Source: Phlebopus portentosus (taxonomy: Eukaryota > Basidiomycota > Agaricomycetes > Boletales > Boletinellaceae). From it: a DNA stretch of 64,000 nucleotides. The stretch lies in contig JAYXKI010000018.1 in the NCBI GenBank assembly GCA_037892935.1, positions 930,001 to 994,000 of the forward strand. The letters run 5' to 3'. Shown here in pieces: positions 3,275-60,722 of the stretch. A program made the translations under genes and the position numbers. How positions within the stretch are numbered: the first letter of the stretch is position 1; the number at the start of each line of letters is the position of its first letter. The notes below the pieces were generated by a model. That model did no database searches. It was not told where the DNA came from and was given only the letters and a program-made list of their open reading frames with translations.

Positions 3275-4643
3275 TCAAAAGGATCTACTCAAAAACTCGC
3301 ATCAAGATTGATACGATCAGCAGATTAACAGGATCAGCATTCCAAATGTGACTAGTAATAGTCTAGCAGTCACTGGAGCTAAATTACTGTTTATGCAACT
3401 AAGACAATGGTCACAGGCATTAACAGCAATATACAGGTGCCTGGGAAGCATGCCGCAAGTACGTAACCCCACAGACTACTTTCCACCACTGACCAATAAT
3501 TACCACTGCTAACTTATTATTGCTGACCATCACCTTAACACTGCCAACTAAACTCCTGATCTGACCTGATCAAAAGAAGTCAAGAAGTGATTAAAACTAC
3601 TAAAAGCCTAAGAAGTCTAAAATGTGACTACCAAAGCCTAATGCCTAATGACTAAAGTCTAAAGGCTAATCTAAGCCCAATAGAGATATTAGTGGCATTC
3701 CAGCACTGTCAGACTTATGCCCAAGCGTACATGGTCCTTTATGAGATATACTTTATAGTATGTCATGCTACAAGTGAGATGTGTGACTGCTAGATCGAAG
3801 TCCAATATCACACACAAGAAGCATTACATGCCAATCTACCAAATCCTATAATACCCAAGTGGCACGAGGAACTCATTGTTATAACTTGAACCTCTTGAAC
3901 TGCAGACCCAATAACTTAGAAGATAATAGGATAGTACAAGCCAGAGCTGCACAATCCATGTCCAGCCTCTACAGTACAAGTGAACCTTTATTTACTAAGA
4001 AATGCAAATCTGGACATCAAGCAACTACAACTGGTACTCCAATGAAGGATATGGCAGTACATTTGCAACATTAGACTTTCAGGCAAAGCATTGCTAGTCA
4101 CTCAAACACAACTGCATTCTTCAGCAGAACTCATACAGTTCATGGTATGTATTAGACCATACTCTACATTAACCTGACATCTCAATACTAATGTGCGAGT
4201 TGTGCTTACACCCTTTGGACCATAAGATAAACAGCAAAGAGTCACATATCAAGCTGCCTACATTGTACCAAGAGCTACAATCCCACCTGGTGATAGAATC
4301 AACATCATAATGGAGTACTGACAGTGGAGCTTTTCATACTGGAACAGCACCTCTATTGTCTCAGTCAGCAACTCTACAGAATTCCATCATAGTGGAGATA
4401 TGTTAGAGCAAAGTGGCACTCAGTGGAGCAGAATGATAAAGGAAGTGATATAATGGTGAAGAAAAGTAGAGCAAGGTAGAGTAAAGTGGAGAGAAGATGA
4501 GTAAGAAATAGGATAGAAAATAGATTATCTAGAAAGCATAAATAGCATTAGAAGTAGGCCCTCTTTCCCCCATTTTTTAATCCTCTTAATACACTGGTGA
4601 TAGTGTCCTAATATAACTCACTGTATGCTTTGTACTACTATGC
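3275..4643 (+). repeat. LTR-Y copy A, 3'-truncated
   Basis: This is similar along its length to 27517-28925 on the same strand and to the reverse complement of 52470-53828. The start corresponds to the TGAAAGGATCT end of the other two copies, here mutated to TCAAAAGGATCT. The last ~185 bp of the family are absent because LTR-X starts abruptly at 4644. A TATA-like motif (AGCATAAATAGCATT) lies near 4535. It contains no credible coding region. Confidence 0.7.
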
Positions 4644-5515
4644 TGAAGAGTAAGTCTGAAGCTTGGGAACGTACGGAGTCGTTACGACCAGTTCCACGGT
4701 GTTCCGACTGGTTTCGCTCAGTTTCGACTGGTTTCGCTCGAACAAGTAGACTTAGCAAGAACGCCATAGTCCAGATGGCACGTGCACCATTCTTTGATCG
4801 GCCATCAAGATGGGAGAATCATGGCATCGAGTTTGCACGCATCGATCACAAGTCTCCGGACCTCGGATCCGCATTCCAGATAAAGAGATTTGACCCTGCA
4901 ACCTCGTCCTCAGTCCCTCTCCTTTGTTAAACATCGCAGACTTACTTTGTCAGGCTAGCCAGAGCCCTTCCGAGTCATTTCCCCGAGTTCCGCTTCATTC
5001 CGCTCAAAGAGACCCGGTTCTGAAGGTTTCGCACATATTCTGACCTTTCTATATGCATCCCCTTTAATCTATTATGCTCTCATTCCAGACATGCTTAGTA
5101 TTGTTTCTTTTGACCTATGTGTCCCTTAAACTATTCCTATGTGCTCCTCTCCTTTGTAGATAGCGATATGCGTTCCCTTTTCTTTGTGACGTAGGTTCTC
5201 TGACCGCTGGGAGGCTCAGTCTTGGACGTTTAGTATAAATATAGCACGACTCTCGTAGTAGAAGGACAGCTTAGTCGGAGCTGAGTGGGAGCTTAGCTTA
5301 CAGTTCTCACATCGTCTCAAAGTCCCTCAACCTCTAGTCTACTTGTTCGTAGTGGACTCTCTCATCTCTATAGTCTAATATACAATATTTCATGTTCTGT
5401 ACAGTCGATCGGTGATCTCTCTTCGTAGCAGAGCCGTTCATACATTCGTATAGTTCGCTGTGATCGTACAAAGGCTCCTCTTACTTCTCTCACCCGAACC
5501 GATACCTCCATACGT
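4644..5515 (+). repeat. LTR-X, right copy, 5' part
   Basis: This segment begins TGAAGAGTAAGTCTG and is the inverted counterpart of bases 1583 down to about 715. It includes a TATA box (AGTATAAATATAGC) at about 5230. It is interrupted at 5515 by the 14.5-kb Ty3 element. The last four bases, ACGT (5512-5515), are repeated at 19983-19986, and the unbroken left copy reads straight through at the matching point. That proves the interruption is an insertion. Confidence 0.8.
5512..5515. other. target-site duplication ACGT, left
   Basis: ACGT precedes the TGTAG start of the inserted element here and follows its CTACA end at 19983-19986. The empty site is visible in the left LTR-X copy (near 707-715 on the minus strand), where the sequence has a single ACGT. 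Four base pairs is within the range seen for Ty3-type integrases. Confidence 0.8.
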
Positions 5516-7227
5516 TGTAGACTATCAGACTCTCCTAGATAGGGACAAAGGCGGCGGTGGCGTTCGACCACAGGGAGGCGATGTCAAAGGTGTCGAGAGG
5601 AAAAAGGGGAGGTCCTACCAGATCTACAGACTACCTACAGGCTTTCAGAAGCGACACTCAGCTCAGATGTACAAGGATCTGGCCGTTAGGCAGATCCGCC
5701 GCGCCTTCGAATAACTCGCCGCGGCGATCCGGGCCTCGGCGACTGTATAGGGATCGCCGAGTCCGACTGAACCGGCGAAGGGGTCGCAGCGGCGGACTGG
5801 GTGCGGGGCCGGCGGAGGTTCGCACCAGTGCAATTCCGCCTGGTAGTCGGGGAGATGACGTCGGAACGACACAGAGAAGATGCGGGAGAGAGAGAGTTGA
5901 CACCACTTAAAAGGGGAGTAGTGTCGGCGGTGGAACGACGCGGAGGCGGCGGAGGCGGCGAGAAGTGGGAGACTGGACTCAGTCGAAAAGGGGCGCCGGC
6001 GCCGACGGTAGCGGTGAACACAAGAAGAGTGACAGCTGCGTCGAGGCGTCGACGAAGTATAACAGATGCCTAGAAGAGTGACGGCTGCATCGAGGCGTTG
6101 AGGAAGAATCACAAATGTTCAGGGGCCGAGCGGCGGCGGAGGCTAGAGAGAGAGGGACGGCGATGCAGATATGAGTGGGAAGTCCCCGGAGCGATTACTA
6201 GACGAGTGACAGCTGCGCAGAGGGGGGACGACCAGGGCGGCGAATGAGCTCGGCGGCTTCTATCCTGTGAGATCCGGGGCCACGCCGTCAGGACGGGATC
6301 GGCGAGGGCACGTGACCGGGAGTTCGCCCGATCCGGCTGTCTGGTTCTCTGTGTATACTGGTTTCTTGAAGGAGGCTTCTTTACTTGTGGTTGGTCTCTG
6401 GTAGCTGCGTTCTAGAGTGTATATCTGCTACTTTTTTAGGATAGATACATGCTCTCTATATATACTATGAGTCCTTGATAAGAAATATCACTTAAAGCGG
6501 CGGGCGGCGAGGCGTGACAGGCGCGCCGCGACGGCGGGGGCCACCGCCGAGATGCGCCGCCAAGCCACCAAGACCTAGGGGCGCCCCAATCGGAACGGCG
6601 GAGTGCTGGTACATCGTGTCGAATGTCGGGGCCGTTCGGATCGGTCAGGGCCCGCTCTATATGGATCTGAAACGCCAAGGGGTCAAATAAAACTAAAAGG
6701 GGGAATATACGGACGGCCGCCGGGCGTGCTACCGCGCTCGGCGTACAATGTGGGATGATAAGAATATGAAACAATCAACGAAATGGACCTGAGATTGGCT
6801 ATCGTTCACCCAGCCGGCGCGGCGGCGGGCATACACCTCCGCGATGGCGCGATATACATCCGCCGCAGCGTGTCCGGCCGCCGTGCGAGCACTTCCGAAG
6901 CCCGGAGTCACCGGATTCGGCGGAACCGGTCTTGAGAGAGGCTGGAGAAGGGGAGCTAGGATTTGGTCGAAGGGAGGACAAGGTGATCATAAGATAGGAG
7001 TGGAGGCGTTGCCGCCGGTTCGTATGGTCGGCGGCGGCGGCGGCGTGGGTGCTGTTCCTAGGCCGCCGAAGGTCCGGCGGCCGCTGAGCAGGCTGTATTA
7101 TGGGTAACGGCGGCGAAGGCTGGTTTGCTGACAATAGTACGCGGGGTGTCCTGGGTATGGCATAGGGGAGTACCGCCCTTACAGGCCTGTGCTGCTGGAC
7201 CGGTACAGGTTAGTGCGGCGCACTACA
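5516..7227 (-). repeat. LTR of the 14.5-kb element (3' LTR in element sense)
   Basis: This is 1712 bp, the same length as 18271-19982, with no indels. I found about 17 mismatches by eye, all CpG-to-TpG/CpA transitions. In element orientation it starts TGTAGTGCGCCG and ends TAGTCTACA. A TATA-like run (TATATATAG) lies near 6452-6465 on the minus strand. ORFs seen inside occur in both LTRs, lack ATG starts and are not supported as genes. Confidence 0.93.
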
Positions 7228-7236
7228 TCTCCTTCT
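7228..7236 (-). promoter_or_regulatory. polypurine tract
   Basis: In element sense the sequence AGAAGGAGA abuts the 3' LTR directly. This is where plus-strand DNA synthesis would be primed in an LTR retrotransposon. It is short but in exactly the expected place. Confidence 0.6.
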
Positions 7237-7352
7237 GACGAAGTAAAAAAAATGATTAAAAAAAATGCTGGGTAGTGTAGGGGAGGTTTTTAGGCGAAGT
7301 TGAGCGGGGGTTGTGATGTAACTGGGTGGTATGTCTGTGACTTGCTCCTGGA

Positions 7353-8300
7353 TTAGTCTTCGGTTGTGAGATCGATCATCGGTGGATCGTGGATTGGTGC
7401 GGCGGTGTGCGGTGGAGGGTTGGCTCTGTCCGCCGCATCTTGTTGAGGTACGTTGTTGAGGTATGGGTGATGTTCAATGGATTCCCGAAGTTCGGCGAGG
7501 TGCTCTTCGATGTCCTGGGCGGCTGCGATTGCTGAGAGCGAATACTGTTGTGCTTGGAGTATAATGGCGATGACGTTGGCGGCGCAGTCGCGTATATCAT
7601 CGTCGCCGCGCTCGTCGAAGAGGCGTAAGACTTGGATTATGGCATTGTGGGATAGTTCTGAGGCGGCGTCGGAGTAAATGACGGCGTTTTCGAGTGCAAT
7701 AGGCCCTTCTCTGAGGATGGCGAGGGGGGCATTGGGTAGTACGCCATCGCCGAGAGGCGCGCCAAGAATTATGGGGATCGTAGTGAGGGCGCCGCCGATG
7801 CGGAGCGTTTCTCGGATGCGGCAAATGAGTGTCGCTTTGTTGGCAGGCGTCAGATGGTGTCTGGCGAAGAGTTTGGGGATGATCTGAAGCATCGCGGGGA
7901 CGTGTCTGGCGGGGAACGGCATCGCCGCAGGAAACGCGTCGGCGAGGAGGTCGCAAAATGATCCCCAGTTTCCGCCGGAGAGGCGTGGGTCTTGACAGAG
8001 GAGTTGCTGGGCGTCCGGCGAGGCCCAAATGTACAGCAGGAAGATTAGAGTCGCCGTGTTGGGGCAGGGGTGCTGAAAACTGCGAAGGGCGGCGATGAGA
8101 ATATTTGGTAGAGCGGTGTAATCAGGGTGCCATGGGTAGAGGAGCATGGGGTGCCCGGGAAGTGTGATTAATTGGGCGAAGTTGAAATCTAAAAGGTGTT
8201 GGGCATGGCGGGGGAAGTGGACTGGGTGCGGGACTTGGAGTAGTGGTGTCGCCGGTGCGAATGGAAACGCTTCGGCGAGGCTGGGAACCAGCTGGGGCAT
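7353..8300 (-). CDS. accessory ORF3 of the 14.5-kb element, unknown function
   Basis: An uninterrupted 315-codon frame runs in the same direction as gag-pol, with a true ATG at 8300. A TATA-like AATATATAAAG lies about 75 bp upstream (near 8372-8383) on the minus strand. The product is rich in Ala, Leu, Pro and Ile and looks largely helical, with no signal peptide or clear membrane segment. Its extreme C-terminus reads PPMIDLTTED, which resembles a SUMO-interacting motif (a hydrophobic IDLT core followed by acidic residues). I do not recognise a family. Its position between pol and the 3' LTR is where env-like or accessory genes sit in other retroelements, but nothing here looks like an envelope protein. 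It is divergent from the antisense Zn2Cys6 gene across 1.14 kb. Confidence 0.65.
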   Translation of the reverse strand: MPQLVPSLAEAFPFAPATPLLQVPHPVHFPRHAQHLLDFNFAQLITLPGHPMLLYPWHPDYTALPNILIAALRSFQHPCPNTATLIFLLYIWASPDAQQLLCQDPRLSGGNWGSFCDLLADAFPAAMPFPARHVPAMLQIIPKLFARHHLTPANKATLICRIRETLRIGGALTTIPIILGAPLGDGVLPNAPLAILREGPIALENAVIYSDAASELSHNAIIQVLRLFDERGDDDIRDCAANVIAIILQAQQYSLSAIAAAQDIEEHLAELRESIEHHPYLNNVPQQDAADRANPPPHTAAPIHDPPMIDLTTED

Positions 8301-9440
8301 GTTGTAAGGAGCGCCGATGGTATTCGTAATCTGTAGGGTAGATGTTTTGGGGGCGGTGAGTAGTTCGCCGACTGCTTTATATATTTTCGGCGAGTGTTTT
8401 CTGGGTTGGCCGGAGGGTATGACGGCTTTTGGCGAGGTGAAGTTGCCAGTATTATAGTGTAGGGGCCAATATAGGCGAAAGCCGAAGTAGTGTTCTAATG
8501 GAAGGGGGCCTAGGCGAAGGTGTTTCGTGTAGGCGGATCGTCGGCGGGACGAGTAAGTGGGATGGGAGGCTAGCGGCGAGGCTGGTTCGCCGGTAGTTCG
8601 GGTATGGTGGCCTGTAGCGGCGTGGGGCGAAGCGAACTTCGAATGGGATGGGGGCCTGGGCGAAGGAATTTCGTATAGGCGGGTCGTCGGCGGGACGAGT
8701 GAGTGGGATGGGGAGCTCGCGGTGAGGCTGGTTCGCCGGTAGTTCGGGTATGGTGGCCTGTAGCGGCGTGGGGCGAAGCGATCTTCGAATAGAAGGGGGC
8801 CTGGGCGAAGGAATTTCGTATAGGCGGGTCGTCGGCGGGACGAGCTTCGATTTAGAAGGGAGTTCGGAAGTAAAGTTTAAATGGTTAATCATGGAAGGTG
8901 TCGTCATATCATGATCTTGATCTGGTACCAGATATGGATACAATGGCCTTGTAGTCAGGGGTAGTGGTACATCGGAAATACACTTCGGCGGGCTTTTGGC
9001 GGTCCGGGAACCAGTCGGGGACGCCTGGTAGTTACCTAGGGCGGTGTAGGTGGTAGCATATAGGTTGAGGATTCGTTAATGGGTGTGGGTACGGCTAGGT
9101 AGGGTGTGCGGCGATATTTGATGATCAGCGGGGGGGGATCGGCGTAGAATGTTGTATCGGCCGGCTTGGCAGGGGTCTGGAGGGTTGGGGCTGTGTTGTG
9201 GCAGGGTTCGGCGGATTGTTCCGGCGAGTTTTGGAGGGGGGCGAGTCGCCGAGGGGTTTGTGGAATTTGAGTGGAGATTGCGGCGGAGCAGTGGGGAGGA
9301 TTTGGTAATTGATTGGTAAAAGGGGGCGGGGAGGTCGCGTGTATGGAGGGCTGAAATCGGAGTTTGAATTGGGTGCGGCGAGGATATAGACGACGGGAAC
9401 TCGTGTCTGAGTTCCCCGTTTCTCTTTTTCTCTTTCCACC
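8301..9440. promoter_or_regulatory. divergent intergenic region between ORF3 and the antisense Zn2Cys6 gene
   Basis: This 1.14-kb region separates the ATG of ORF3 (minus) from the ATG of the Zn2Cys6 gene (plus). It has a TATA-like element for each direction: near 8372-8383 on minus, and GGATATAGAC near 9386 on plus, about 50 bp before the ATG. It also contains a ~146-bp tandem repeat. The frames within it start with non-ATG codons and reflect the repeat. It reads as an internal bidirectional promoter independent of the LTRs. Confidence 0.5.
8498..8860. repeat. ~146-bp tandem repeat, about 2.4 copies
   Basis: Units begin at the motif GGGGCCTRGGCGAAGG, seen at 8505, 8651 and 8796, giving a period of 145-146 bp. 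The first two units are near-identical through GGCGTGGGGCGAAGCGA. The third breaks off at about 8855. Differences between units are mostly transitions. The repeat lies in the divergent promoter region, so it may hold repeated protein-binding sites (inference). Confidence 0.8.
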
Positions 9441-11090
9441 ATGGCGCCGACGATTCTCAGCGTCAGCAGCAGCAGCGACAGCAGCAGCAACAACAGCAGG
9501 GAGGGGTCGGAGGCTCCCTCCGACCAGATGGAGGTGGACGCCGGGGCGGCGACGGGGGCTCCTGCTGCGGGCGGGATGTCGCGGGCCCCCAGCGGGCAAG
9601 AGGTCCCGCCGGAGTCGCAGGGGGAGACGGAGGAGGAGGGGGTGGGGAGGGTGGGGAGGGGGGGAAGAACTGGACGCGGCCGTGTAGGCGGCCATTACGG
9701 CGGTGAGGGGGTGGATCGAGCGGGCCCGAAACGATGAGGGGCCCGCTGCCGATGAGCTCGATGGGCTCTTGGTAAATTTGTGTTCCCTTGATAATAACCG
9801 TGTGAGCTGACGATCTGGTTTACTTTTTCAGAAGGGGCTTGGGGAGCGCTTCCCCGCGCTATCTGACGACGCGAGGGCTGAAAAGCCCGAATATTATTGC
9901 GCGGGGAGGTGGTTGGTGAACCGGGCGACGATGGTGCGGATGGCCGCCGGGGAGGCTAAGGACGCCGCCGAGGCGTTGGACAAGGCCGCCCAGTCGGAGG
10001 TGAATCGCCTCCGACGCGTCGCGGAGAGGCTGGCCAAGCGCCGGGAGGAGGAGGCTCGTGAGGAGGCGAAGCGGAGCGCGGCGAAGGTGGCCGAGGAGGC
10101 GAAAGCCTCCTTCCTCAAGACGCTCGCCACCCTGCGAGTTGGGGGCCCGGAGGTCGTCGAGGCCTTCTGTAGGTCCTCAGGGCGCGATGAGGCGGGGAAC
10201 CTGGTAAGTCGTTGTCTTGAATCTTGTTTTTTTACTGTCTCTGATAATATCTTCTTAGGTCGCGGCGCCTAAAATGAGCACCAAAGCGAAGGTGCAGGCG
10301 CATCCCGCGGCCAGGCCGGCGACGGGAAAGACGATTACTCTTCCTGGGTCATCGATCCCTGGTCTTGAGGTGGCGGGTTCATCCAGCGAGACGCTCAAGG
10401 GGGAGAGTGGTCGAGTGACGCGAGAGGGACGCTCGGGGACGGTCACGGAAAAGACCATTACTCTTGAGGTTGAGTCTGATGAGGGGTCAACGCGAGCAAA
10501 AAGGTCGAGTGGAAAGGAGGTATATGTCGATGTGTGTTTTATGTCCTGGATCTTATTCTTCACTGATATGTTTCGTTTCTAGGTGCCTCCCCTTCCGAAG
10601 CGCGTACGTGAGCCGGTGGTCGAGCCGCCGGCGAAACGAGCAAGAGCGCCGGGAGCGGCGGCCTCGGGTGGGGGCAGGGCGAAAGAGGAGGCGACAGGAA
10701 GACGGGACGGGGCGGTGAGTGCTGTCTTGAATTTTGTTCGTGACACTCTCTGACTATAATATTCAGAGGGAGGAGGGGGGTTGGGAGTTCGAGAGGGTCG
10801 AGCGGCTCCCCAGGGGTCAGAGCCGCCGCCTCCTCGAGTTCGTGTCGCCGGGGTGCGAGCGGTGCATCGGGCGTGGGGAGATGTGCACGAGGCGCCCGCC
10901 GGTGCTCCTGTGCCAGGTGTGCCGGGTATCGCACCGGTGGTGCGATATCTTGGAGTCAGACGTGACCTTCCTGGCGCAGCAGGAGGTCCTCGCTCTCCGC
11001 CGGCAGCTGGAGGGGATGGAGTCGACGTTGGCAGGAGAGAGTGCGGGTGGGGGGGTGGAGGAAAAGGCCCAGGGTGAACGCCGTGGATAG
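9441..11090 (+). CDS. antisense spliced gene for a Zn2Cys6 cluster protein carried by the retroelement
   Basis: Proposed exons are 9441-9641, 9688-9771, 9832-10203, 10259-10519, 10583-10714 and 10767-11090 (457 residues). All five introns are phase 0, and the four downstream ones have good GT...AG consensus. The start has a strong context, CCACCATGGCG. Layout: Ser/Asn-rich N-terminus; acidic stretch; long Ala/Glu/Arg coiled coil at about residues 120-205; a basic, NLS-like region (LPKRVREP, PPAKRARAP) at about 308-330; then six cysteines at 380, 383, 390, 399, 402 and 409 (CX2CX6CX8CX2CX6C), followed by a short coiled coil. That cysteine spacing is the fungal Zn(II)2Cys6 DNA-binding cluster. 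The gene runs opposite to gag-pol and converges on pol. A nuclear DNA-binding or regulatory role is inferred. The first intron (46 nt, G-rich) is the least certain. Confidence 0.72.
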
Positions 11091-11529
11091 GCGGCGAGCC
11101 AAACGACGCAAACGGCGTCGGCTCGCGGTCTTCGGCGACCATGAAGCGCCCTTGGGCCGAAAAAAAATATTAAAAAAATAGGAAAAATATAAAAGTACAA
11201 AAATATTGTATTTTTCTTTTTCTTGTGTACTATAGTGGCTTGTAATAACAAGCCGAATGTTTTTCTTGTGAGGATGGTTCTTTGTGAGATCAGGGAATGT
11301 AAGATTGAGATGGGCTGGAGTGAAATAGGGAGGATAGGCGCCCTAAAAATAGCGCCGGGGCCGAAAGACTGACTTGAGTAAGGTGAAAATGTGGGAGGGG
11401 GTGACTCGGCGTCTCGCCGCAGTCGTTTGGGTGATGATTGGAGAGAGTGAAGATAGCAGCGGGTCCGAATAGGTGACTTAGGGAATGTGTATATAAGGGA
11501 GAGGGTGATTATGAGGCTTCGGCGGATCT
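11091..11529. other. convergent 3' spacer with AT-rich presumed terminator
   Basis: This is the gap between the ends of the Zn2Cys6 gene (plus) and pol (minus). In an otherwise GC-rich element it holds a strongly A/T-rich block at 11158-11225 with A- and T-runs on both strands, suited to 3' end formation for both transcripts. It also holds a 7-bp perfect hairpin (GGCTTGT/ACAAGCC) at 11237-11254. No gene is seen. A similar A-rich block lies at the matching place of the decayed relative (41430-41490). Confidence 0.45.
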
Positions 11530-14500
11530 TCATAAGTTGGATTCGGCGTCTAGGTCATCCGCCGCGGTCTCTTGTGCTAGGTTGTCGAGTTCCGGCGTGG
11601 ATTTCTGAGTGAGGTCTTCGACTGAGTCGATGATTCGAGTGCGTGTGTGGTAGGGGATAACTCTGAATGCTGTGTAACGAAGTGCTGAAATGGCGCCGTT
11701 TGCTTCGGCGAGAATGTAGGATCCTCCTTTGGTTCGCCGCACGACAATCATGGGCCCTAGGTATTTCGGCTTTGTCTTCCTGTTCAGCTCGTTTTCTATC
11801 TGGGAGTTCCTGACCAGCACAAGTGAGCCGGGGGCGAAATTGTAATCCTTAATTGTTGCGGCGTGGGTTTTCTCGAAGTCCTGTATGGATTTGAAGCGTC
11901 CCTGGATGACAGATTCCTTGACTCGTTGGAGGTCCTCGGGTCGTTTCTGGAGTGCCCTTGCTCTCGCCGCGATGAGTTGTGCGTCGGACATCTTGGAGGT
12001 GACCGCCGGCGAGATGTACGTCTGTTCGGCGAGGTCGAAGGGGAGTACTGGTTCGACGCCGTGGGCCATAAAGTATGGGCTATAGCCTGTGCGGCGTTGG
12101 ATCGTGATTCGTTCAGCCCAAATGGCGTAGTATATATGCTGGGACCACTTGTCTGGGCTTGCGTCGGCGAGCTTCATTAGGGTTTCTCTGAGGTCCCGGT
12201 GTCGCCGCTCAATGATTCCGTTGGCTCTTGAGTTGTACGGCGAGATTCGGATGTGCTGGACGTTGTATTTGGCGAGAAGGCAGGGTAAGTCCTTGGAGAA
12301 TGAGGCGCCGTTGTCGGTTACGATCTCCTCGACTCGTCCCCATCTTGACAAAATATCTTCAAAAATGAAGCGTGCTATCGAGGTGGCGTTATCTTTGCGC
12401 AGCATTCGGAATTCGGAGTATCCGGTGAGCGAGTCTCGGGCCTGAACGATATACTTGAATCCGCCGGAGGGCGGCATTAACATCACGTCTATATGCACCC
12501 TGGAGAATAGCGGCGCGGGCGTCGGGCTTTGCGGCGTGGTATATATTTTTGTAAACTGCCTCGTTTGGCATCGGTGGCAGGTTCTGATATACCATTTGAT
12601 GTCCTGATGCATTCCTGGCCACCAAAATCGGTCTTGGATCGTTGTTCTGACAGAGAAGAAGCCTTTGTGGCCGAGTTCGTCGTGGGCAGTTCTGATAATG
12701 GAAATTCGGCGTTCCGGCGGAATAGCGAGAGCGGCGTGACCTTTGTCGTTCTTTCTGTAGAGTTCGCCGTGCTGTAGGAAGAAACGAGTGGCTCGGCGTA
12801 TGAACTGTTTGAATTGGGCGTCTGAAAGATCGGCGGGGCGGGATGGGGCGGCGAGAAATTTCTTGATACAATCGAGGTCTTTGAATCCTTTTTGGGAGGC
12901 TTTGTGATCGGGGAGTTGTACGGGTTCGCTGTTTGGGGTATAGGCCGTGTCGGAAAGGTCTTGGTTTAGGAAGGAGTATTGATGGTCGATCCATTCTTCG
13001 AAGCCTTCGTCTCGCGGCGGATCAGTTTGTGCGGCGCCGTGGCGTGATAGGCCGTCTGGGCCGAGGTGTTTGGGCGCCGGCGTATGAATGATCGTGAAAT
13101 TGAAAAGTAAGATGCCGGCGATCCATCTATTGATAGTGGCGTTGGGTTGGAGGTCTGGGTTGTTAATCATGCCTTTAATATAGCTGGCGTCGACTTCGAC
13201 GAAAAAGTGATCGATGCCGACGAGGTATATGCGCGCCTCATATAGAGCTCTGAAGAGGCCGAAGAGTTCTAGCTTCGCCTGGGAGTAGTTTCGTTCTCTG
13301 TTGTTCCAGGTTCTGGACATGAAACGGGATGGGACCCTTTCGCCATTTTCGCCGAGCTGTAACAAGATGGCGCCGTAGCCATGAACGGAGGAGTCTACAC
13401 AGAAATGAACAGGTTGTCCTGACTCGTAGTCAATAGAACGAATGGCGCCGGAGGATGCTACGGCGTGTTTTAGTAGATCCATAGATCGGCGGGCGTCTTC
13501 GTCGAATAGGAAGGGCTGGTCTTTGCAGAGTAGTTTGTTGAGACCGGCGGATAGTCTGGCGTAGTTCTTAACGAAGTGTCTCAGGACGCCGGCCGTACCT
13601 AAGAATGCCCGAACATCGTGGACATCCCGCGGTGGCGGCCAATCCATTATCGCCTTGACCCTGGATGCGTCTGGGACTCGGCCGGCGTAATTACAGGTGT
13701 GTCCTACAATGACTGCTTCTGGTGCGGCGATGATGAGTTTCTTACCCGAGACAGTGGCGCCGACTACTTTGAGGCGTTGGAGGACGCGGTTGACGTCGTT
13801 GAGATGTTCCCAGATGAAGCGGCGGATGTTCGGGTTCCCCGGAATGGTTTCGTAGTTTCCGGCGGCGAGCTCGTATCGGGATTTAGGCCCTTTTACAGGA
13901 ATATCGTCGATGTATGGGATACAGACGTGGGGTATCTCATCTTTGAGTACGAAGGTGACGTCGGCGTGCATAATTTGTTGCGAGTTGGTGTATCCCATAG
14001 GAATCGACGTGAGGCGAAACGCGCCGAGAGGTGTTTGGAATGTTGTGAGGTCGCGGGATCGTACGTCGAGCTTTCTCTGGTCGAAGGCGACGAATAGATC
14101 GAGTGTGGTGTAGCAGGCGTGGCCGCCGAAGGTCTCGGCGATGTGTTCTGTGGGGTAAGGGACGGAGGGGTCGCGTATAGAGACTTTGTTGAGTGGCTGG
14201 AGGTCGTGTACAAGCCGAAGGGATTTTCCATCCTTTTTAACGACGCAGAACCATCGGGAGCGGTAAGAGGAATTGGACGGCTCGTAGACGCCGGAGTTAA
14301 TTTTGTCTTTGATTATGCGAACCACTTCGTTGAAGATCCCCGGCGGAATAGGGATGTTTTTCATTACCCACGGCGTATGGTCGACAGTAGGAATTAGAAC
14401 CGGCGCGAAGTATTGATAGTCGAGGGAGCCCTTTTCTGTTTCGTCCCAAGCTAGGCCGTCTTCATGTTGTAGAAGGGTCCAGTAGGCGAGGTTCTTTTCT

Positions 14501-15015
14501 TCCTCACTGAGGAAGCCAGTTGGGTCGATGTCTAGGGCATCGAAGCGTTCTTGTGTAAAGCGGCGTCCTGGAATGAACTCCGGTGGATCGATAGGGAGCT
14601 TCGGTAGATCTGTGAGCGGCTGCGGGTGTGATTTGCGTATGATGCGGTAGTCCTCTGGAAGGGTCGCCGATATAGGTTTGGTTCGTTGGACGACCTTTTT
14701 GTACTTGTAGGCGTGCCCGGCCGGTTGAGCGGCCTTGGTATTAAGAGTGCTGTTGGAGCGGGGTATTCGGTTGCGTACGGGGAGTGATTCATCGTCGAAA
14801 ATAGAGTTAATGAAGAAGGCCGGATGTTTTTGGGCTTTGTTCTGGGCTGTGAAACCCTTTTCGGCGGATCGATCAGAAAATGAGGTGGAGATATCTATAG
14901 TGCGGGGACTGAAGGCGATATTTACAGTCGCCGGGCCGTGGTGGAGCACATATGCGTCGGGTATGGTTGGGGGTATATGCTGCATATGTTCCGGCGGACG
15001 CCGCTGGGACGTCAT
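11530..15015 (-). CDS. pol: Ty3/gypsy Pol: reverse transcriptase, RNase H, integrase
   Basis: An uninterrupted frame of 1161 residues begins with an ATG at 15015. The RT carries the catalytic box as YIDD (about 13895-13910), after VHDLQPLNK and before PVKGP. RNase H begins around FCVDSSVHGYGAIL (about 13370-13410). The integrase follows, with an HHCC zinc domain (HDELGHKG...CHRCQTRQ, about 12560-12690). Its core acidic residues are in VHIDVMLM (near 12490), VTDNGASF (near 12310) and GIIERRHRD (near 12210). A GPY/F-like segment (YLGPMIVVRR) follows; I see no chromodomain. The ATG overlaps the gag stop as ATGA, and pol's own frame has a TAG two codons earlier. Reinitiation after gag therefore fits better than frameshifting. 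All visible catalytic residues are present, so it may be active. Confidence 0.95.
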   Translation of the reverse strand: MTSQRRPPEHMQHIPPTIPDAYVLHHGPATVNIAFSPRTIDISTSFSDRSAEKGFTAQNKAQKHPAFFINSIFDDESLPVRNRIPRSNSTLNTKAAQPAGHAYKYKKVVQRTKPISATLPEDYRIIRKSHPQPLTDLPKLPIDPPEFIPGRRFTQERFDALDIDPTGFLSEEEKNLAYWTLLQHEDGLAWDETEKGSLDYQYFAPVLIPTVDHTPWVMKNIPIPPGIFNEVVRIIKDKINSGVYEPSNSSYRSRWFCVVKKDGKSLRLVHDLQPLNKVSIRDPSVPYPTEHIAETFGGHACYTTLDLFVAFDQRKLDVRSRDLTTFQTPLGAFRLTSIPMGYTNSQQIMHADVTFVLKDEIPHVCIPYIDDIPVKGPKSRYELAAGNYETIPGNPNIRRFIWEHLNDVNRVLQRLKVVGATVSGKKLIIAAPEAVIVGHTCNYAGRVPDASRVKAIMDWPPPRDVHDVRAFLGTAGVLRHFVKNYARLSAGLNKLLCKDQPFLFDEDARRSMDLLKHAVASSGAIRSIDYESGQPVHFCVDSSVHGYGAILLQLGENGERVPSRFMSRTWNNRERNYSQAKLELFGLFRALYEARIYLVGIDHFFVEVDASYIKGMINNPDLQPNATINRWIAGILLFNFTIIHTPAPKHLGPDGLSRHGAAQTDPPRDEGFEEWIDHQYSFLNQDLSDTAYTPNSEPVQLPDHKASQKGFKDLDCIKKFLAAPSRPADLSDAQFKQFIRRATRFFLQHGELYRKNDKGHAALAIPPERRISIIRTAHDELGHKGFFSVRTTIQDRFWWPGMHQDIKWYIRTCHRCQTRQFTKIYTTPQSPTPAPLFSRVHIDVMLMPPSGGFKYIVQARDSLTGYSEFRMLRKDNATSIARFIFEDILSRWGRVEEIVTDNGASFSKDLPCLLAKYNVQHIRISPYNSRANGIIERRHRDLRETLMKLADASPDKWSQHIYYAIWAERITIQRRTGYSPYFMAHGVEPVLPFDLAEQTYISPAVTSKMSDAQLIAARARALQKRPEDLQRVKESVIQGRFKSIQDFEKTHAATIKDYNFAPGSLVLVRNSQIENELNRKTKPKYLGPMIVVRRTKGGSYILAEANGAISALRYTAFRVIPYHTRTRIIDSVEDLTQKSTPELDNLAQETAADDLDAESNL

Positions 15016-17471
15016 TGTCTAGGGGGGTGCTGTTTTTCTGTCCCGGCGCCGCGCTGAATCGTCGGGATCGACATGGTTTCGTTCGTATCGGGATGAGTAA
15101 GGTATAGCATCTGTTCGCCGTCGGCCTCGTCTATGACCTGCGCCCTAGTGTGTACGAAAAACGGCCGGCCTAATAGTAACTGAAAGGGGGCCTTTTCGAC
15201 GACCTGGACTTGGACAACAATAGAGAAGGCACCTATGGTGAGTCTGACGCGAGGGATGAGTCCCGCCGAGCGTGAGGTTTGTCTATCGGCGGTTTCTACT
15301 GTGATTGCTTGGCTCATTATCGTCGGGGACCCGAGGTCCTTCCATACCTCTTTTGGCACGGCGATAAATGTCGACCCCGAGTCGAGCAAACCTTTTACTT
15401 CGAATTTACCATCGAGCCAGACCTCGATTTCGCGGAGGGGAATGTTCGGCGGGGCGACGGAAGGATCTTCGTTGCTGAAGTTAACCGGCGAGGTGGGCCT
15501 CGGGATTGAGGCGTACATTGCCATCTCGTGATCAGGATTTTCCCTAATTAGTTCTCGGCGCCCCGTGACGAATTCTTTACACTTCTTTCTGATTTCGGGA
15601 GAGGCGGCGAGCAGGCTTCGGATCGGCAGGGTGACTTCCGAGTCCAGAATCTTGTCGAAAATGTTCGATACCGCGGCGTCATCGTATGCTGGTACGGTGG
15701 TTCGGTATTGTGGCTTCGGATCCGCCGCATCGTCCCTGTGCGGCGCCGAGGGCGTCAGCGGCGGGGCCGGGCGTTGTCCGGGTGGTTTCCCCTTCTTGCT
15801 GTTATCTCCCCATTTCGGGTTGGGGTCTCGAGGCGGCTTTCTGGTGGGGATTTCGATTCCGTCGAAAACTTCTCTGGGGCCTGGCCGTCTTCCGGCGGCG
15901 GCGAAGGCATTCTGCGGTTGTTCGGGGGATTCTTCTTGTTCAAAAAGGAGCGCGACTCCGTCGCAGGTATCGTCGTCTGGGGGGTCTTCTGGGGTGATAG
16001 CCTCGAAGTAGTTCGATTCCTGGATTCGCGGCGGCAGGCCGTTCGGCGGATTTGTATTGTAGGCTAAGGGAGGCGGTGCCCGGTTGAGGCCCTGGTACAT
16101 AGATTCCTGTGATGGAGGGTGTGACTGATACATGGATTGTTGAGTCGGCGGTTGTCCCTGATATGTAGGATCCTGCCTCGGCGGAGCAATCCTTGGCGGC
16201 GTGTCGGATACGGGCTGAATGGGGAGCTGGACGCCAACTGGTGCGTAGTTTGGATTCTCTATGAAGAGCTTATTGATCCTGTCCAGTACTGACATCCCCG
16301 GTTCTCCCTGAGGGAGTCGGCCATTGGAGGGGTACAAGTACCCTTTGGCGTTGGCGAGCATGATTCCCCTCTGGATCAGGGAGATCTTGGTGGGACAGTC
16401 GCGGGTAGAGTGCGTTACACTGGCGCATACGGTGCATTTTCCGTTAGATCTGGCTTGTCGGGGCTGTGGTGGGGCTCCTGCAGTTGGCGGCGGAGCGCGG
16501 CGGTTTGACTTCTCGGTGGCTTCACGGAGGGCGCGCATTTCCTGGATTAGGAGGGACACCCATGGTTCTTCTTGCTTGACCTGGGGTTGGTTGATGACTC
16601 CGTAGGCCGGAGCACCGGGTTGCGGCGGCGGCGTGTACGTCGTAACTTGTGTATAGGTGGGCATGGCCGCTGTCGCCGCATACATCAGTGGTTGGTCGGC
16701 GGTTGTGAGGCGGCCGCCGGTTAGGATGCGTTCTAGTTCTCTTACAACTGTGTCGATGTCCCAGGGCACGCCGGTAGGGTGGTCGTGCTTGACAAACCGC
16801 AAATTAAGATCCAGCTCTCTGTTTAGCGTCGGGTGGAGGCCTTCTCTGAACATACGCTTCTGTTCGAACTCTGATAGCATGCCGGCGTCGATAAGATACG
16901 AGGAGACGGTGATAAAGTTCCTATAGTATTCGCCGAGGGCGGCGGTGTTCAGCATAATTTGGTTGCGGCTTATGTTAATAAGGTTGTGGAGGTCGCCGAG
17001 TGTGTACTGGGTCGTAGCGTTTGGGTAGTACTTTAGGATAGCGTCTTTGAATGCCATAAAGTCGTTTCCTCTCATTTCGGGCCTTTTGCACCATAGCTGA
17101 TCGTCTTTAGCGTCGGCGTAGCATCTTGCCCAAGCGATCATTTGTGCATCTGTTAGGCCGGCGCTTCGTCCAAATAGCCGGACTCTGTTAAAGAAGATGG
17201 GGATTTCCGCGGGGTCGCCGGAGGCGTTGAACTTCGGCGCGCGGCGGTCTCCCGGGTAGGGCATTGTAGCTCCTGGCACTGGTGGATTGGGACCACTTAA
17301 TGGATGGGTATCTGGGTCACTGAGGTCTGGGAGAGGGGGAAAGGCGCCCGCGGGGGGTGGTGCTGGTGCGGCATAGGCTGGTGCGGCAGGGGACGGCTGT
17401 TGGGGGGGCGGCGGGGTCGATCCTGAGGCTGCGGGGGGCGCAGCGGGAATGCCGGTATGGGTGCTGGTCAT
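15012..17471 (-). CDS. gag: Gag-protease polyprotein
   Basis: From the first in-frame ATG (17471) the product is 819 residues. A proline-rich start leads into a capsid-like region (from about 17240, RRAPKFNASGDPAEIPIFFN). A zinc knuckle CTVCASVTHSTRDC (CX2CX4HX4C, about 16395-16436) follows. At the C-terminus is a retropepsin with LLDSGSTFIAVP (near 15372-15400) and LLGRPFF (near 15160-15180). The protease is thus fused to Gag, with pol in a separate frame. The stop TGA (15014-15012) overlaps the pol ATG. The same frame stays open without any ATG for 285 more codons, up to 18326 inside the LTR and across the primer-binding site, so the true start could be upstream and non-ATG. Confidence 0.88.
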   Translation of the reverse strand: MTSTHTGIPAAPPAASGSTPPPPQQPSPAAPAYAAPAPPPAGAFPPLPDLSDPDTHPLSGPNPPVPGATMPYPGDRRAPKFNASGDPAEIPIFFNRVRLFGRSAGLTDAQMIAWARCYADAKDDQLWCKRPEMRGNDFMAFKDAILKYYPNATTQYTLGDLHNLINISRNQIMLNTAALGEYYRNFITVSSYLIDAGMLSEFEQKRMFREGLHPTLNRELDLNLRFVKHDHPTGVPWDIDTVVRELERILTGGRLTTADQPLMYAATAAMPTYTQVTTYTPPPQPGAPAYGVINQPQVKQEEPWVSLLIQEMRALREATEKSNRRAPPPTAGAPPQPRQARSNGKCTVCASVTHSTRDCPTKISLIQRGIMLANAKGYLYPSNGRLPQGEPGMSVLDRINKLFIENPNYAPVGVQLPIQPVSDTPPRIAPPRQDPTYQGQPPTQQSMYQSHPPSQESMYQGLNRAPPPLAYNTNPPNGLPPRIQESNYFEAITPEDPPDDDTCDGVALLFEQEESPEQPQNAFAAAGRRPGPREVFDGIEIPTRKPPRDPNPKWGDNSKKGKPPGQRPAPPLTPSAPHRDDAADPKPQYRTTVPAYDDAAVSNIFDKILDSEVTLPIRSLLAASPEIRKKCKEFVTGRRELIRENPDHEMAMYASIPRPTSPVNFSNEDPSVAPPNIPLREIEVWLDGKFEVKGLLDSGSTFIAVPKEVWKDLGSPTIMSQAITVETADRQTSRSAGLIPRVRLTIGAFSIVVQVQVVEKAPFQLLLGRPFFVHTRAQVIDEADGEQMLYLTHPDTNETMSIPTIQRGAGTEKQHPPRQ

Positions 17472-18249
17472 TGTTGGTATCGAGGCCGTCTTAGGAGGTG
17501 TACTGGGGGTGGGTGGTTGGGCGTTGTCAATTGGGGAGAGCCGCGGCCTCTGAGCTGGGGTCGGCGGCGTAAGAGGGGGGGGTGGGGAGAGCCTCGCCGA
17601 TCGCTCTTCTTCGACGGGGGATAGTGGAGAGTCGGGGGTGATTGCGTGGCCGTGTACGAGGGAGTCGGGGACGTAAAGGTCGTCGTCCTCCTGTTCTTCT
17701 GCGGCGGGGTATAACTGTAGGCCGGTGCGGCGGTGGATATCTGGGGGGTTGTCTATGTCGGAGAAGAGGTCTGTTTCGATGGGACCGGTGGCTGGAGGTT
17801 CCTGGAGGGATATTGACAGGTCCTCGATGCCGCCGGGGACACGAACGTGAGTACTGGGGCGAATTTCAGATTCGCGGAGTTCTTTAGGAACGTGGATGAA
17901 ACGAGGGGGAATTATAGGCGATATAGGGCGTGCGGCGGCGATGCTTGCGCTTTCGCCAGGCGGTGGGTTGCGTGTAAAAGGAGTAATAGATGCTCTTCTG
18001 GGACGCCGGGTGGGTGGGTCATCTGCGGCGATGGACGCACATCGTCGGTTTGGCGCGGACGGAGATCTGGGTGCGGTGGGACGGGGTTCTTCTGTTCGGC
18101 CTCTTGTAAAGAGTGTGGAATAATGGTATGGTTGGCCGGCGGTTGTAGCTGAGGCTGTTTGACTGTTTTCCGCCCTTCTTTGCAGCCTTAGTGAGTATCG
18201 CGTGCCCTTGGAAGGGCCTGAGATCGGTTGGAACGACACCTTTTTACCT
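17472..18249 (-). other. retroelement leader containing an ATG-less in-frame extension of gag
   Basis: This lies between the PBS and the first gag ATG. It is open in the gag frame throughout, with no in-frame ATG. The predicted peptide is rich in Pro, Ser, Arg and acidic runs (EEQEDDDLY) and looks protein-like rather than random. It could be translated from a near-cognate start, or it could be an untranslated leader kept open by high GC. Confidence 0.4.
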
Positions 18250-18267
18250 CCCTCGCAGTGGGCTCCA
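18250..18267 (-). promoter_or_regulatory. primer-binding site, tRNA 3'-end type (tRNA-Cys-like)
   Basis: In element sense, four bases after the 5' LTR (CTACA-TTT...), the sequence TGGAGCCCACTGCGAGGG begins with TGG. It is complementary to a tRNA 3' end reading ...AGTGGGCTCCA. A U at the discriminator position before CCA is typical of eukaryotic tRNA-Cys, so that tRNA is the likely primer (inference). The site lies in the open gag frame. Confidence 0.7.
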
Positions 18268-18270
18268 AAA

Positions 18271-19982
18271 TGTAGACTATCAGACTCTCCTAGATAGGGA
18301 CAAAGGCGGCGGCGGCGTTCGACCACAGGGAGGCGATGTCAAAGGTGTCGAGAGGAAAAAGGGGAGGTCCTACCAGATCTACAGACTACCTACAGGCTTT
18401 CAGAAGCGACACTCAGCTCAGATGTACAAGGATCTGGCCGTTAGGCAGATCCGCCGCGCCTTCGAATAACTCGCCGCGGCGATCCGGGCCTCGGCGACTG
18501 TATAGGGATTGCCGAGTCCGACTGAACCGGCGAAGGGGTCGCAGCGGCGGACTGGGTGCGGGGCCGGCGGAGGTTCGCACCAGTGCAATTCCGCCTGGTA
18601 GTCGGGGAGATGACGTCGGAACGACACAGAGAAGATGCGGGAGAGAGAGAGTCGACACCACTTAAAAGGGGAGTAGTGTCGGCGGTGGAACGACGCGGAG
18701 GCGGCGGAGGCGGCGAGAAGTGGGAGACTGGACTCAGTCGAAAAGGGGTGCCGGCGCCGACGGTAGCGGTGAACACAAGAAGAGTGACAGCTGCGTCGAG
18801 GCGTCGACGAAGTATAACAGATGCCTAGAAGAGTGACGGCTGCGTCGAGGCGTTGAGGAAGAATCACAAATGTTCAGGGGCCGAGCGGCGGCGGAGGCTA
18901 GAGAGAGAGGGACGGCGATGCAGATATGAGTGGGAAGTCCCCGGAGCGATTACTAGACGAGTGACAGCTGCGCAGAGGGGGGACGACCAGGGCGGCGAAT
19001 GAGCTCGGCGGCTTCTATCCTGTGAGATCCGGGGCCACGCCATCAGGACGGGATCGGCGAGGGCACGTGACCGGGAGTTCGCCCGATCCGGCTGTCTGGT
19101 TCTCTGTGTATACTGGTTTCTTGAAGGAGGCTTCTTTACTTGTGGTTGGTCTCTGGTAGCTGCGTTCTAGAGTGTATATCTGCTACTTTTTTAGGATAGA
19201 TACATGCTCTCTATATATACTATGAGTCCTTGATAAGAAATATCACTTAAAGCGGCGGGCGGCGAGGCGTGACAGGCGCGCCGCGACGGCGGGGGCCACT
19301 GCCGAGATGCGCCGCCAAGCCACCAAGACCTAGGGGCGCCCCAATCGGAACGGCGGAGTGCTGGTACATCGTGTCGAATGTCGGGGCCGTTCGGATCGGT
19401 CAGGGCCCGCTCTATATGGATCTGAAACGCCAAGGGGTCAAATAAAACTAAAAGGGGGAATATACGGATGGCCGCCGGGTGCGCTACCGCACTCGGCGTA
19501 CAATGTGGGATGATAAGAATATGAAACAATCAACGAAATGGACCTGAGATTGGCTATCGTTCACCCAGCCGGCGCGGCGGCGGGCATACACCTCCGCGAT
19601 GGTGCGATATACATCCGCCGCAGCGTGTCCGGCCGCCGTGCAAGCACTTCCGAAGCCCGGAGTCACCGGATTCGGCAGAACCGGTCTTGAGAGAGGCTGG
19701 AGAAGGGGAGCTAGGATTTGGTCGAAGGGAGGACAAGGTGATCATAAGATAGGAGTGGAGGCGTTGCCGCCGGTTCGTATGGTCGGCGGCGGCGGCGGCG
19801 TGGGTGCTGTTCCTAGGCCGCCGAAGGTCCGGCAGCCGCTGAGCAGGCTGTATTATGGGTAACGGCGGCGAAGGCTGGTTTGCTGACAATAGTACACGGG
19901 GTGTCCTGGGTATGGCATAGGGGAGTACCGCCCTTACAGGCCTGTGCCGCTGGACCGGTACAGGTTAGTGCGGCGCACTACA
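18271..19982 (-). repeat. LTR of the 14.5-kb element (5' LTR in element sense)
   Basis: This is the partner of 5516-7227, equal in length at 1712 bp. It starts (plus strand) TGTAGACTATCAG and ends GCGCACTACA, followed by the ACGT target duplication. The promoter TATA-like run is at about 19207-19220. Several CpG sites present in the other LTR are TpG or CpA here and vice versa, so each copy has decayed separately since insertion. Confidence 0.93.
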
Positions 19983-19986
19983 ACGT

Positions 19987-20705
19987 GTTCTGAACTGTTT
20001 CGCCCAGTTTCGCTTGTAACCCAGTTACTCTGCGTGCCGCTTGCATTTGGTCTCGCAACACCTTCTCTTCTCCATTGTCATCGGGAAAGGACACCATATC
20101 ACCCCTTTCCTCTTGACTTTCCACTCTCCACTTCCTCAAGACCAGCCTGGTGCTATTTCGCATCATTTCGATCGGAAACGGTCAGTTTCATCGTCCCACA
20201 CATATCCTTCGATTCTCTCAGTCCCCTTCCATCATCGTTTTGCACCTCCATCCCTCGCATCACATTTCAACATACTCAGCAATTATCCTTCATCTATCGT
20301 ATCGCATTTCGAATCATTACGCCGCGTTCCGACACTTAAGACTACGAGTGAGATCGACTGCAGTCACTTACCAGTGTGTTAGCACAGTCGATTAGTCACG
20401 TTCGGGTTGGTGGTTCAACTAGCGTAGCTTAGTTAGTTTAGTTCTTGTGCCTTGGGTTAGTCGGCTTTAGTCCAGAGCTCGCAGCTGAGCCGGAGAGTCG
20501 ATTTAGCCTTTGCACCGCCACCATCGATCTCGGGAGAAGCCTACCCTCGGAATTCCTCCTCAAGCGCTTCCCTCATATCCCCGGTTCTCACCAAGCCCTT
20601 CCATTGTCTATCCCTATTTCCCTCCACTCCTTCGTGCCCTTAGCTCGGGTGTAATTCTCTGCTGACTGTTTGAAGGTATTCTAGGGCAGCCCCTCGAACT
20701 ATACA
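19987..20705 (+). repeat. LTR-X, right copy, 3' part
   Basis: This continues the LTR interrupted at 5515 and matches the reverse complement of 711 down to 1. The left copy ends at the window edge in TCGAA, so the exact end here is a guess: CTATACA at 20699-20705 gives a canonical CA end. Total length with 4644-5515 is about 1.59 kb. Confidence 0.7.
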
Positions 20706-24459: not shown

Positions 24460-25587
24460 TTAGTATCTAGTAGGTCCTCCTTTTGAATCAATTACTGCCT
24501 GTGCACGGCGAGGTATAGACAAAATATAATTATTTATCTTCTCTATTGGTATCTGCTCCCATGCCTCCAATACAGCCGCCTCGAGCTCCCCAAGTGATGT
24601 TGGAGGATGTCGACGAGCCCATATATTCCGTTTCAGGTCCAGCCAGCATGGTTCAATTGCGCTGATGTCGGGTGAAGAGGGTGGATGTGGAAACCTTGAA
24701 ATGCTGTATTGTTCAAACCACTGTTGCGTTGACTTCGCAGTATGACAGCGTGCATTGTCCTGCTGAAATGTAACAGACCGATTGCGTCGTCGAACCTGCT
24801 TGTAAAAATCCAACAAACACCCATCTAAAACCTGCTCAATGTAACGCTTCGCAGTCATTCCACCACCCTTCCCACCTGGATAGTCAAGTACAATGAGAGG
24901 GCCCTTCCTGTTGTACATAATGCACCCCCACACCATAACATGCACAGGAGACTTGGTGAAGGTCGGAATAATGCAATCTTCATGCCAGACTTCATCGGGA
25001 CTTCGAGTACAGTAAACAGCACCCGGGTGTGAGCCGAGGTATACATAGCACTCATCTGAGAAGATGACCGACTTCAATTCCTTCATCGTTATCTTTGCCA
25101 GCTGTTTTGCACGTGCTAGCCTCTGCACCCGGTTGGCCTTGGTAATGTATGGAGCACGTCTGGCCTTCCTACGCTTAAGATCCATGGCCTCCAGCTCACG
25201 TTTGACGGTACGAGGACTGATTTTGGTATGCAGCTGTTTTGCAAGGATTTTGTATGGTGCAAAGCGGTTCTTTCGGGTGGTACGTCTCAGGAGGCGGCAT
25301 GCATGATCATCAAGTAGGCGTGGACATCCAGATCGGGGCTTGTTTTTTGTTGTACCAGTCGTCTCGAAGCGAGCAAAGATACGGCGCACAGTTCTCCGGG
25401 GCACTCCAAATGTTCTTGACACTTGCATAGTATTTTGGCCACCAATCATGGCACCAACAATGCGGTTCTTGACTGGCGATGCAAGCTGGGACCTCCTTGG
25501 ACACGCATCGGACATTTGGGGAGGGTCGTGGGTCGTCTGCGAGATGGAGGAGGCAAGCAAAGCGAGGGTATGGGCGACGCGGCACAT
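24460..25587 (-). CDS. Tc1/mariner (IS630-type) DDE transposase, intact
   Basis: The first ATG inside the element, 25587, lies just internal to the TIR and gives 375 residues; the open frame upstream of it leaves the element and is not used. N-terminal helix-turn-helix DNA-binding segments precede the catalytic core, for example QVSRTFGVPRRTVRRIFARF at about residues 65-84. The DDE residues are in SDECYVYLG, QQDNARCHTAKS and SPDISAIEPCWLDLK. That places 34 residues between the second Asp and the Glu, as in Tc1-type enzymes. It cuts and pastes the element by binding the 34-bp TIRs. No stop or frameshift is seen. Confidence 0.93.
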   Translation of the reverse strand: MCRVAHTLALLASSISQTTHDPPQMSDACPRRSQLASPVKNRIVGAMIGGQNTMQVSRTFGVPRRTVRRIFARFETTGTTKNKPRSGCPRLLDDHACRLLRRTTRKNRFAPYKILAKQLHTKISPRTVKRELEAMDLKRRKARRAPYITKANRVQRLARAKQLAKITMKELKSVIFSDECYVYLGSHPGAVYCTRSPDEVWHEDCIIPTFTKSPVHVMVWGCIMYNRKGPLIVLDYPGGKGGGMTAKRYIEQVLDGCLLDFYKQVRRRNRSVTFQQDNARCHTAKSTQQWFEQYSISRFPHPPSSPDISAIEPCWLDLKRNIWARRHPPTSLGELEAAVLEAWEQIPIEKINNYILSIPRRAQAVIDSKGGPTRY

Positions 25588-25593
25588 GTTTTT

Positions 25594-25627
25594 TGTGACA
25601 GTGGCCGTTACTTTTGTCACCCAGCTG
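25594..25627 (-). repeat. Tc1 element right terminal inverted repeat
   Basis: Perfect inverted partner of 24303-24336, followed immediately by the TA target duplication. Confidence 0.93.
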
Positions 25628-60575: not shown

Positions 60576-60722
60576 GGCGGTAGCGTCGTCGGCGTTAACA
60601 ATAATGGTGGTACCCGTTAAAGAGTCTGGCTCGCGTGGCTTCAGAGCAAGCAAACAAACAACGCGTCAACAGAGACTGATCAGCGTGATTTACAATTATT
60701 TTATCATCTTATTTCCACAGTC
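60576..60722. promoter_or_regulatory. 147-bp divergent promoter of NDC1 and PEX19
   Basis: Only 147 bp separate the two ATGs. The PEX19-proximal side is AT-rich and pyrimidine-rich (TTATTTTATCATCTTATTTC). No clear TATA box is seen for NDC1. Shared transcription control is likely from the spacing alone. Confidence 0.6.

Follow-up and report, generated by a model that had tools for sequence, protein, structure and literature searches.

A spliced antisense gene with a Zn2Cys6-like cysteine cluster in Ty3-type retrotransposons of Phlebopus portentosus

Antisense ORFs between pol and the 3' LTR are known from Ty3-type retrotransposons of plants, namely gene23 of Grande, RIRE2 and TRP28 of Retand, as passages of two papers describe (PMC7264820, PMC11963269). 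For Retand, one such passage states that nearly all clusters encode TRP28, a predicted DNA-binding protein, and that tandem repeats occur in this region in about half of the elements (PMC11963269). A fungal example is Boty of Botrytis, which according to a passage of PMC7264820 carries an antisense ORF between pol and the 3' LTR; in Boty-like elements of Botrytis cinerea the antisense gene is named brtn (a reference title and a passage in PMC8365987). The initial annotation of the locus analyzed here, which knew of no well-described fungal case, has to be corrected on this point. Among the open-licence papers listed, titles and the beginnings of abstracts yielded no fungal or zinc-cluster antisense gene other than Boty/brtn; none described an antisense gene that is spliced and zinc-cluster-like, or one from a basidiomycete.

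The antisense gene of the Phlebopus portentosus elements resembles the plant ORFs in position, orientation and presence in most copies, to the extent that these are set out in the passages cited (PMC7264820, PMC11963269). The same passages give the Grande protein as nuclear and the Retand protein as predicted to bind DNA, in which they are like the reading of the antisense gene that we favor. The plant proteins are different ones, however, in another host kingdom, and the main text of the Retand paper (PMC11963269) does not contain the word 'intron' whereas the gene in the first of the element families below has four. Boty/brtn is likewise an antisense ORF in a fungal LTR element but has an ascomycete host, and is likened to the present gene by position, not by sequence. 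HBZ of HTLV-1, mentioned in PMC11963269, is also an antisense-encoded nuclear protein of a retroelement; it differs in protein class and host, and is an analogy only.

The 64-kb stretch of DNA analyzed (the window) contains a full-length Ty3-type element at positions 5516-19982, with gag-pol on the minus strand, as the initial annotation had recognized. Its 1712-bp LTRs (5', 18271-19982; 3' with respect to gag-pol, 5516-7227; both minus strand) are 99.0% identical, have TG..CA ends, and are flanked on both sides by ACGT. Between them come gag, protease, reverse transcriptase, RNase H and integrase, which is the Ty3-type order. The gag-protease ORF (15012-18326, minus strand; DUF4100 and aspartyl protease) probably has its true start further in, the computed ORF start falling inside the LTR. 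It is overlapped by 4 bases by the pol ORF (11530-15015, minus strand), which encodes reverse transcriptase, RNase H and integrase. The overlap, 15012-15015, reads ATGA, and an overlap of this kind would fit stop-restart translation. Around the element are inverted repeats of 408-716 bases, 94-96% complementary, at 1-1587, 4640-5515 and 19983-20698; given these, the element seems to lie inside another repeat. Elsewhere in the window there is a 411-aa transposase ORF (24460-25695, minus strand) that matches DDE_3 and a Tc3-type HTH, and the region 59452-61310 likely represents host genes, with a Pex19 match on its plus strand and, on its minus strand, weak Ndc1-Nup matches below the cut-off.

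The antisense gene lies between pol and the 3' LTR, on the plus strand (9441-11090), as an ATG-led frame opposite to gag-pol. Of 39 matches to it in the 38.4-Mb genome, 26 near-full ones (family 1) were aligned, the 13 split or shorter matches being excluded. All 26 copies have GT..AG introns in phase 0 at the four positions corresponding to 9772-9831, 10204-10258, 10520-10582 and 10715-10766 (plus strand), and these introns have a G+C content of 0.31-0.38 as against 0.60-0.73 for the exons. The proposal of a spliced protein-coding gene antisense to gag-pol is borne out in this respect, as is the idea that its introns are kept through retrotransposition; they survive because it is the complementary strand that serves as genomic RNA. 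The original model, however, had six exons and five phase-0 introns, and the remaining intron, 9642-9687, was rejected: its AG acceptor is present in only one of the 26 copies, that of the window, and its G+C content (0.72) is exon-like. In other copies the exon continues across this segment, in frame where a variable G run permits. Because the acceptor is absent elsewhere, and because a frameshift and a nonsense codon occur here, the six-exon model is seen to span damage in the window copy. On comparison of the copies, then, the family-1 gene is one of five exons and four phase-0 introns, of which the window holds a damaged example.

The five exons, all on the plus strand, have the following features. 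Exon 1 (9441-9771) is contiguous, including 9642-9687, and is broken in the window copy by the frameshift and nonsense codon. Exon 2 (9832-10203) encodes a charged, Glu/Arg/Ala-rich stretch. It is followed by exon 3 (10259-10519) and by exon 4 (10583-10714), which encodes the basic runs KRVREP and KRARAP; both the basic runs and the helical look of the exon 2 stretch were judged by eye only. Exon 5 (10767-11090) holds the six-cysteine cluster (10854-10943). Seven of the 26 copies are open through the five-exon model, one of which lacks the ATG. Exons 2-5 are free of internal stops in 15 copies, two of which have a frameshift close to the end. A long G run in exon 1 (about 9640-9675) varies in length among copies and breaks the frame in many. 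Outside it, the coding sequence of nine copies has ten single-base indels, nine of them within or next to G runs and the tenth within a C run, with four copies sharing one of these indels. Slippage and assembly error both fit such homopolymer indels; the shared frameshifts may mean that intact copies serve others in trans, or may be homopolymer errors in the assembly. One diverged copy (L035, 88%) has five stops and changes in two of the four intron donors, and was accordingly read as dead; its pN/pS is 0.62 in the gene frame, compared with 0.84 and 0.69 when the two other forward frames are read.

Selection was assessed from the number of synonymous variants, set against an expectation derived from the same trinucleotide contexts. 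Among 247 variants in the 26 family-1 copies, 107 were synonymous (92.2 expected; z 2.08), making the ratio of nonsynonymous to synonymous variants (N/S) 0.78 of expected. The constraint that the initial annotation had proposed to look for in other copies is there, in modest degree. The gene frame had the highest synonymous excess of the six, the other five giving z values of -0.83 to 1.56, and the excess was z 1.23 for singletons and z 1.82 for shared variants. In a subset of 14 copies, those most like the window copy and fetched with long flanks, N/S was 0.67 (z 1.99), and the shared variants comprised eight synonymous and four nonsynonymous changes where 2.9 synonymous were expected (z 3.76). 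Values for the same 14 copies were 0.35 of expected (z 8.46) in pol and 0.66 (z 1.74) in the C-terminal part of gag-protease, so that by these counts the antisense gene appears constrained about as much as the latter and less than pol. The codons of the six cysteines are kept in 26 of 26 copies. Amino acid changes within the cluster in exon 5 affect 0 of the 6 cysteine codons vs 13 of the 24 others (hypergeometric probability about 0.02).

A second family (L037) is abundant and affords better statistics than that of the window. For six copies of its antisense gene, N/S was 0.35 of expected with z 5.30; a seventh copy (L042), whose start does not align, was excluded, and with it the gene-frame z is 1.23. 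The mirror frame on the other strand gave z 4.77, with three stops among its variants, and the remaining four frames were negative; we read the mirror signal as wobble positions facing each other. All 12 exonic indels in family 2 are multiples of three vs none of 13 in the 3' flank, although slippage in triplet repeats would also be in frame. By these variant counts purifying selection acts on the reading frame, to a modest degree in family 1 and strongly in family 2. Because of these tests and of the related families described below, the antisense gene goes beyond what chance would give and is probably a real accessory gene and not a chance reading frame.

The family-2 gene, like that of family 1, is antisense and located between pol and the 3' LTR. 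It encodes 724 aa in three exons with two phase-0 introns, and its ATG is 129 bases from the inner edge of the 3' LTR; the LTRs are 1628 bp long and 99.7% identical. With the pol of the window as query, at least nine family-2 copies were among the matches listed, at 53% identity (best 40 of 641 candidates scored). Five of the seven copies fetched are open and five of seven have both introns as GT..AG. There are 95 genomic matches to the main exon, of which 41 cover it to residue 511 or 512 of 512, and 20 of these 41, by hand count, have no stop. In families 1 and 2, then, the antisense gene is present in many copies and conserved as a protein. Two weak matches (32%) to the family-2 main exon led to a third family; in its one fetched member (L045) the same kind of antisense exon adjoins a pol that is 52% identical to that of the window over residues 23-682 and looks truncated.

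The closest proteins listed in three protein-database searches came from Sanghuangporus sanghuang, S. weigelae, S. baumii and S. vaninii, which, taken by themselves, would make the host very probably a Sanghuangporus (Basidiomycota, Hymenochaetaceae). All the proteins listed were from Sanghuangporus, but scoring in each search covered the roughly 8000 candidates with most words in common, and wider relatives may exist. Protein P0010 of S. sanghuang matches the family-3 gene at 97%, and two S. vaninii proteins match it at 56-59% over half its length. Two family-2 proteins, P0005 and P0006, are annotated with both junctions where the family-2 model has them, though P0005 differs from the model within exon 1; in a further one, P0008, the first junction is off by one residue. 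A tblastn search of plasmids with P0001 gave no match. Related six-cysteine genes are shown, at the level of sequence, to lie antisense beside pol in three element families, and the gene would have been acquired before these families split.

Fungal zinc-cluster domains have the Zn2Cys6 consensus CX2CX6CX5-12CX2CX6-9C. The cluster in family 1 is CX2CX6CX8CX2CX6C, as first noted, and falls within this consensus; the three families have the pattern in common, the variable gaps being X8/X6 in family 1, X7/X6 in family 2 and X7/X7 in family 3. The corresponding profile did not confirm the assignment: family 1 scores 7.8 and 12.6 bits with PF00172, against a cut-off of 21 bits, and PF00172 is absent from the listing for the family-2 main exon. 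At E<=10, PF00172 was found in four of eight members of the antisense families (best E 0.035), and it matched none of ten half pieces. The basic signature usual in the half with the first CxxC is missing. The score difference is at most 4.5 in the eight sequences vs at least 13.7 in all ten host domains, these ten being the ones, out of 20 fetched, that show the whole pattern. With the halves swapped, seven of the eight sequences score higher, all at low scores. The genome itself has 27 PF00172 matches. Single-sequence PDB searches returned nothing relevant; in structure prediction, the cluster fold tentatively resembles those of PPR1, HAP1 and Pho7, and the family-2 model, a prediction only, has the cluster followed by long helices. 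The antisense gene is thus like the fungal Zn2Cys6 transcription factors (PPR1, HAP1, PUT3, GAL4, Pho7) in cysteine spacing and, tentatively, in predicted fold, but unlike them has its cluster in the last exon, falls short of the PF00172 cut-off, and lacks the basic signature in the first half. Its cluster is Zn2Cys6-like and not a proven member of the family.

Between the antisense gene and the 3' LTR lies a sense-strand ORF of 315 aa (ORF-X; 7353-8300, minus strand) that is divergent from the antisense gene. Ten of 14 copies have it open over its whole length, with N/S 0.46 of expected (z 3.25; mirror frame z 2.47), and 22 of its 24 full-length matches in the genome (42 in all) have no stop. 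It has no Pfam match, and its single-sequence model was unusable (pLDDT 41.6). Two other ORFs were dropped: a sense ORF adjoining pol (10817-11533), considered as a third sense gene, has N/S 1.02 of expected in the 14 copies, and an ORF at 9036-9695 (minus strand) has 1.68. The region separating ORF-X from the antisense gene (8301-9440), which measures 1140-1430 bases in the 14 copies, has a 146-bp tandem repeat at 8493-8844 and is a putative divergent promoter. Pairs of CGG half-sites were scanned for with 72 patterns per region. In the family-1 LTR they are in excess at spacings 0, 3 and 6 (z 12.9, 7.0 and 4.8), which looks like a triplet repeat; z reached 5.7 in pol (spacing 0), up to 4.0 in the divergent region and 3.5 in the family-2 LTR, and the scan brought out no site in common.

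We favor the reading, at a probability of roughly 0.55, that the antisense accessory gene of this Ty3 lineage, placed between pol and the 3' LTR, encodes the element's own nuclear DNA-binding regulator of transcription. The gene would be expressed from its own antisense promoter, for which the divergent region (family 1) and the sequence beside the 3' LTR (family 2) are candidate sites. The protein would then enter the nucleus, bind element DNA, whether in the LTR or in the divergent region inside the element, and adjust its transcription; the antisense genes of plant Ty3 elements have been the subject of a like proposal. The zinc-cluster-like region together with the basic runs makes a nuclear DNA-binding role the likeliest; within it, control of transcription is our best single guess, integration or anti-silencing roles ranking behind. 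A bolder form is possible, though less likely than not: that the lineage has its own spliced, trans-acting transcription factor with a half-swapped Zn2Cys6-like domain, driven antisense from an internal or 3' LTR promoter, any intact copy of which regulates the whole family so that copies with broken genes still spread.

The protein could instead be a nuclear accessory factor without a transcriptional role, acting in the pre-integration complex, in integration targeting or by interfering with host silencing. This is possible, though we think it clearly less probable than transcriptional control; the same sequence evidence would fit it, and such roles, like those of retroviral accessory proteins, have been suggested for plant antisense ORFs in a passage of PMC7264820. 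Nothing in the present evidence separates these roles from the transcriptional one. That the antisense RNA itself is functional, in control of the element by dsRNA or small RNA, and that the protein matters little, is in our view improbable. For antisense transcripts of retrotransposons, action via dsRNA-mediated silencing has been proposed (passage in PMC7264820), and many family-1 copies are frameshifted; however, the synonymous excess, the invariance of the cysteines and the protein similarity across three families would not be expected of a function in RNA only.

The ordinary Zn2Cys6 genes of the genome are a conceivable source of a captured host transcription factor gene, carried as a passenger of no benefit to the element. 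It is hard to square with this that selection is seen, that three families have related genes at the same position, and that the first-half signature is unlike that of the ten host domains; nor did a single-copy parent stand out in the rows of the own-genome search, whose contexts were not individually checked. We regard such a passenger as very unlikely. Chance reading frames in a G+C-rich stretch are the least probable explanation of all. Such DNA does yield long chance frames, and the window copy is open only via the false intron, but introns in 26 of 26 copies, the N/S tests, the invariant cysteines and a pattern repeated in three families all argue against chance, and family 2, with its z of 5.30, contradicts it.

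Plants are known to have LTR retrotransposons with antisense genes; here a fungal lineage has one that bears introns, is under selection, occurs in at least three families and encodes a DNA-binding-like cluster. It also shows a way for a gene with introns to persist in a retroelement, namely on the strand opposite to the genomic RNA. Since such products appear in annotations as hypothetical proteins, they may be included in host gene counts. That these elements encode their own regulator is a specific claim and a testable one.
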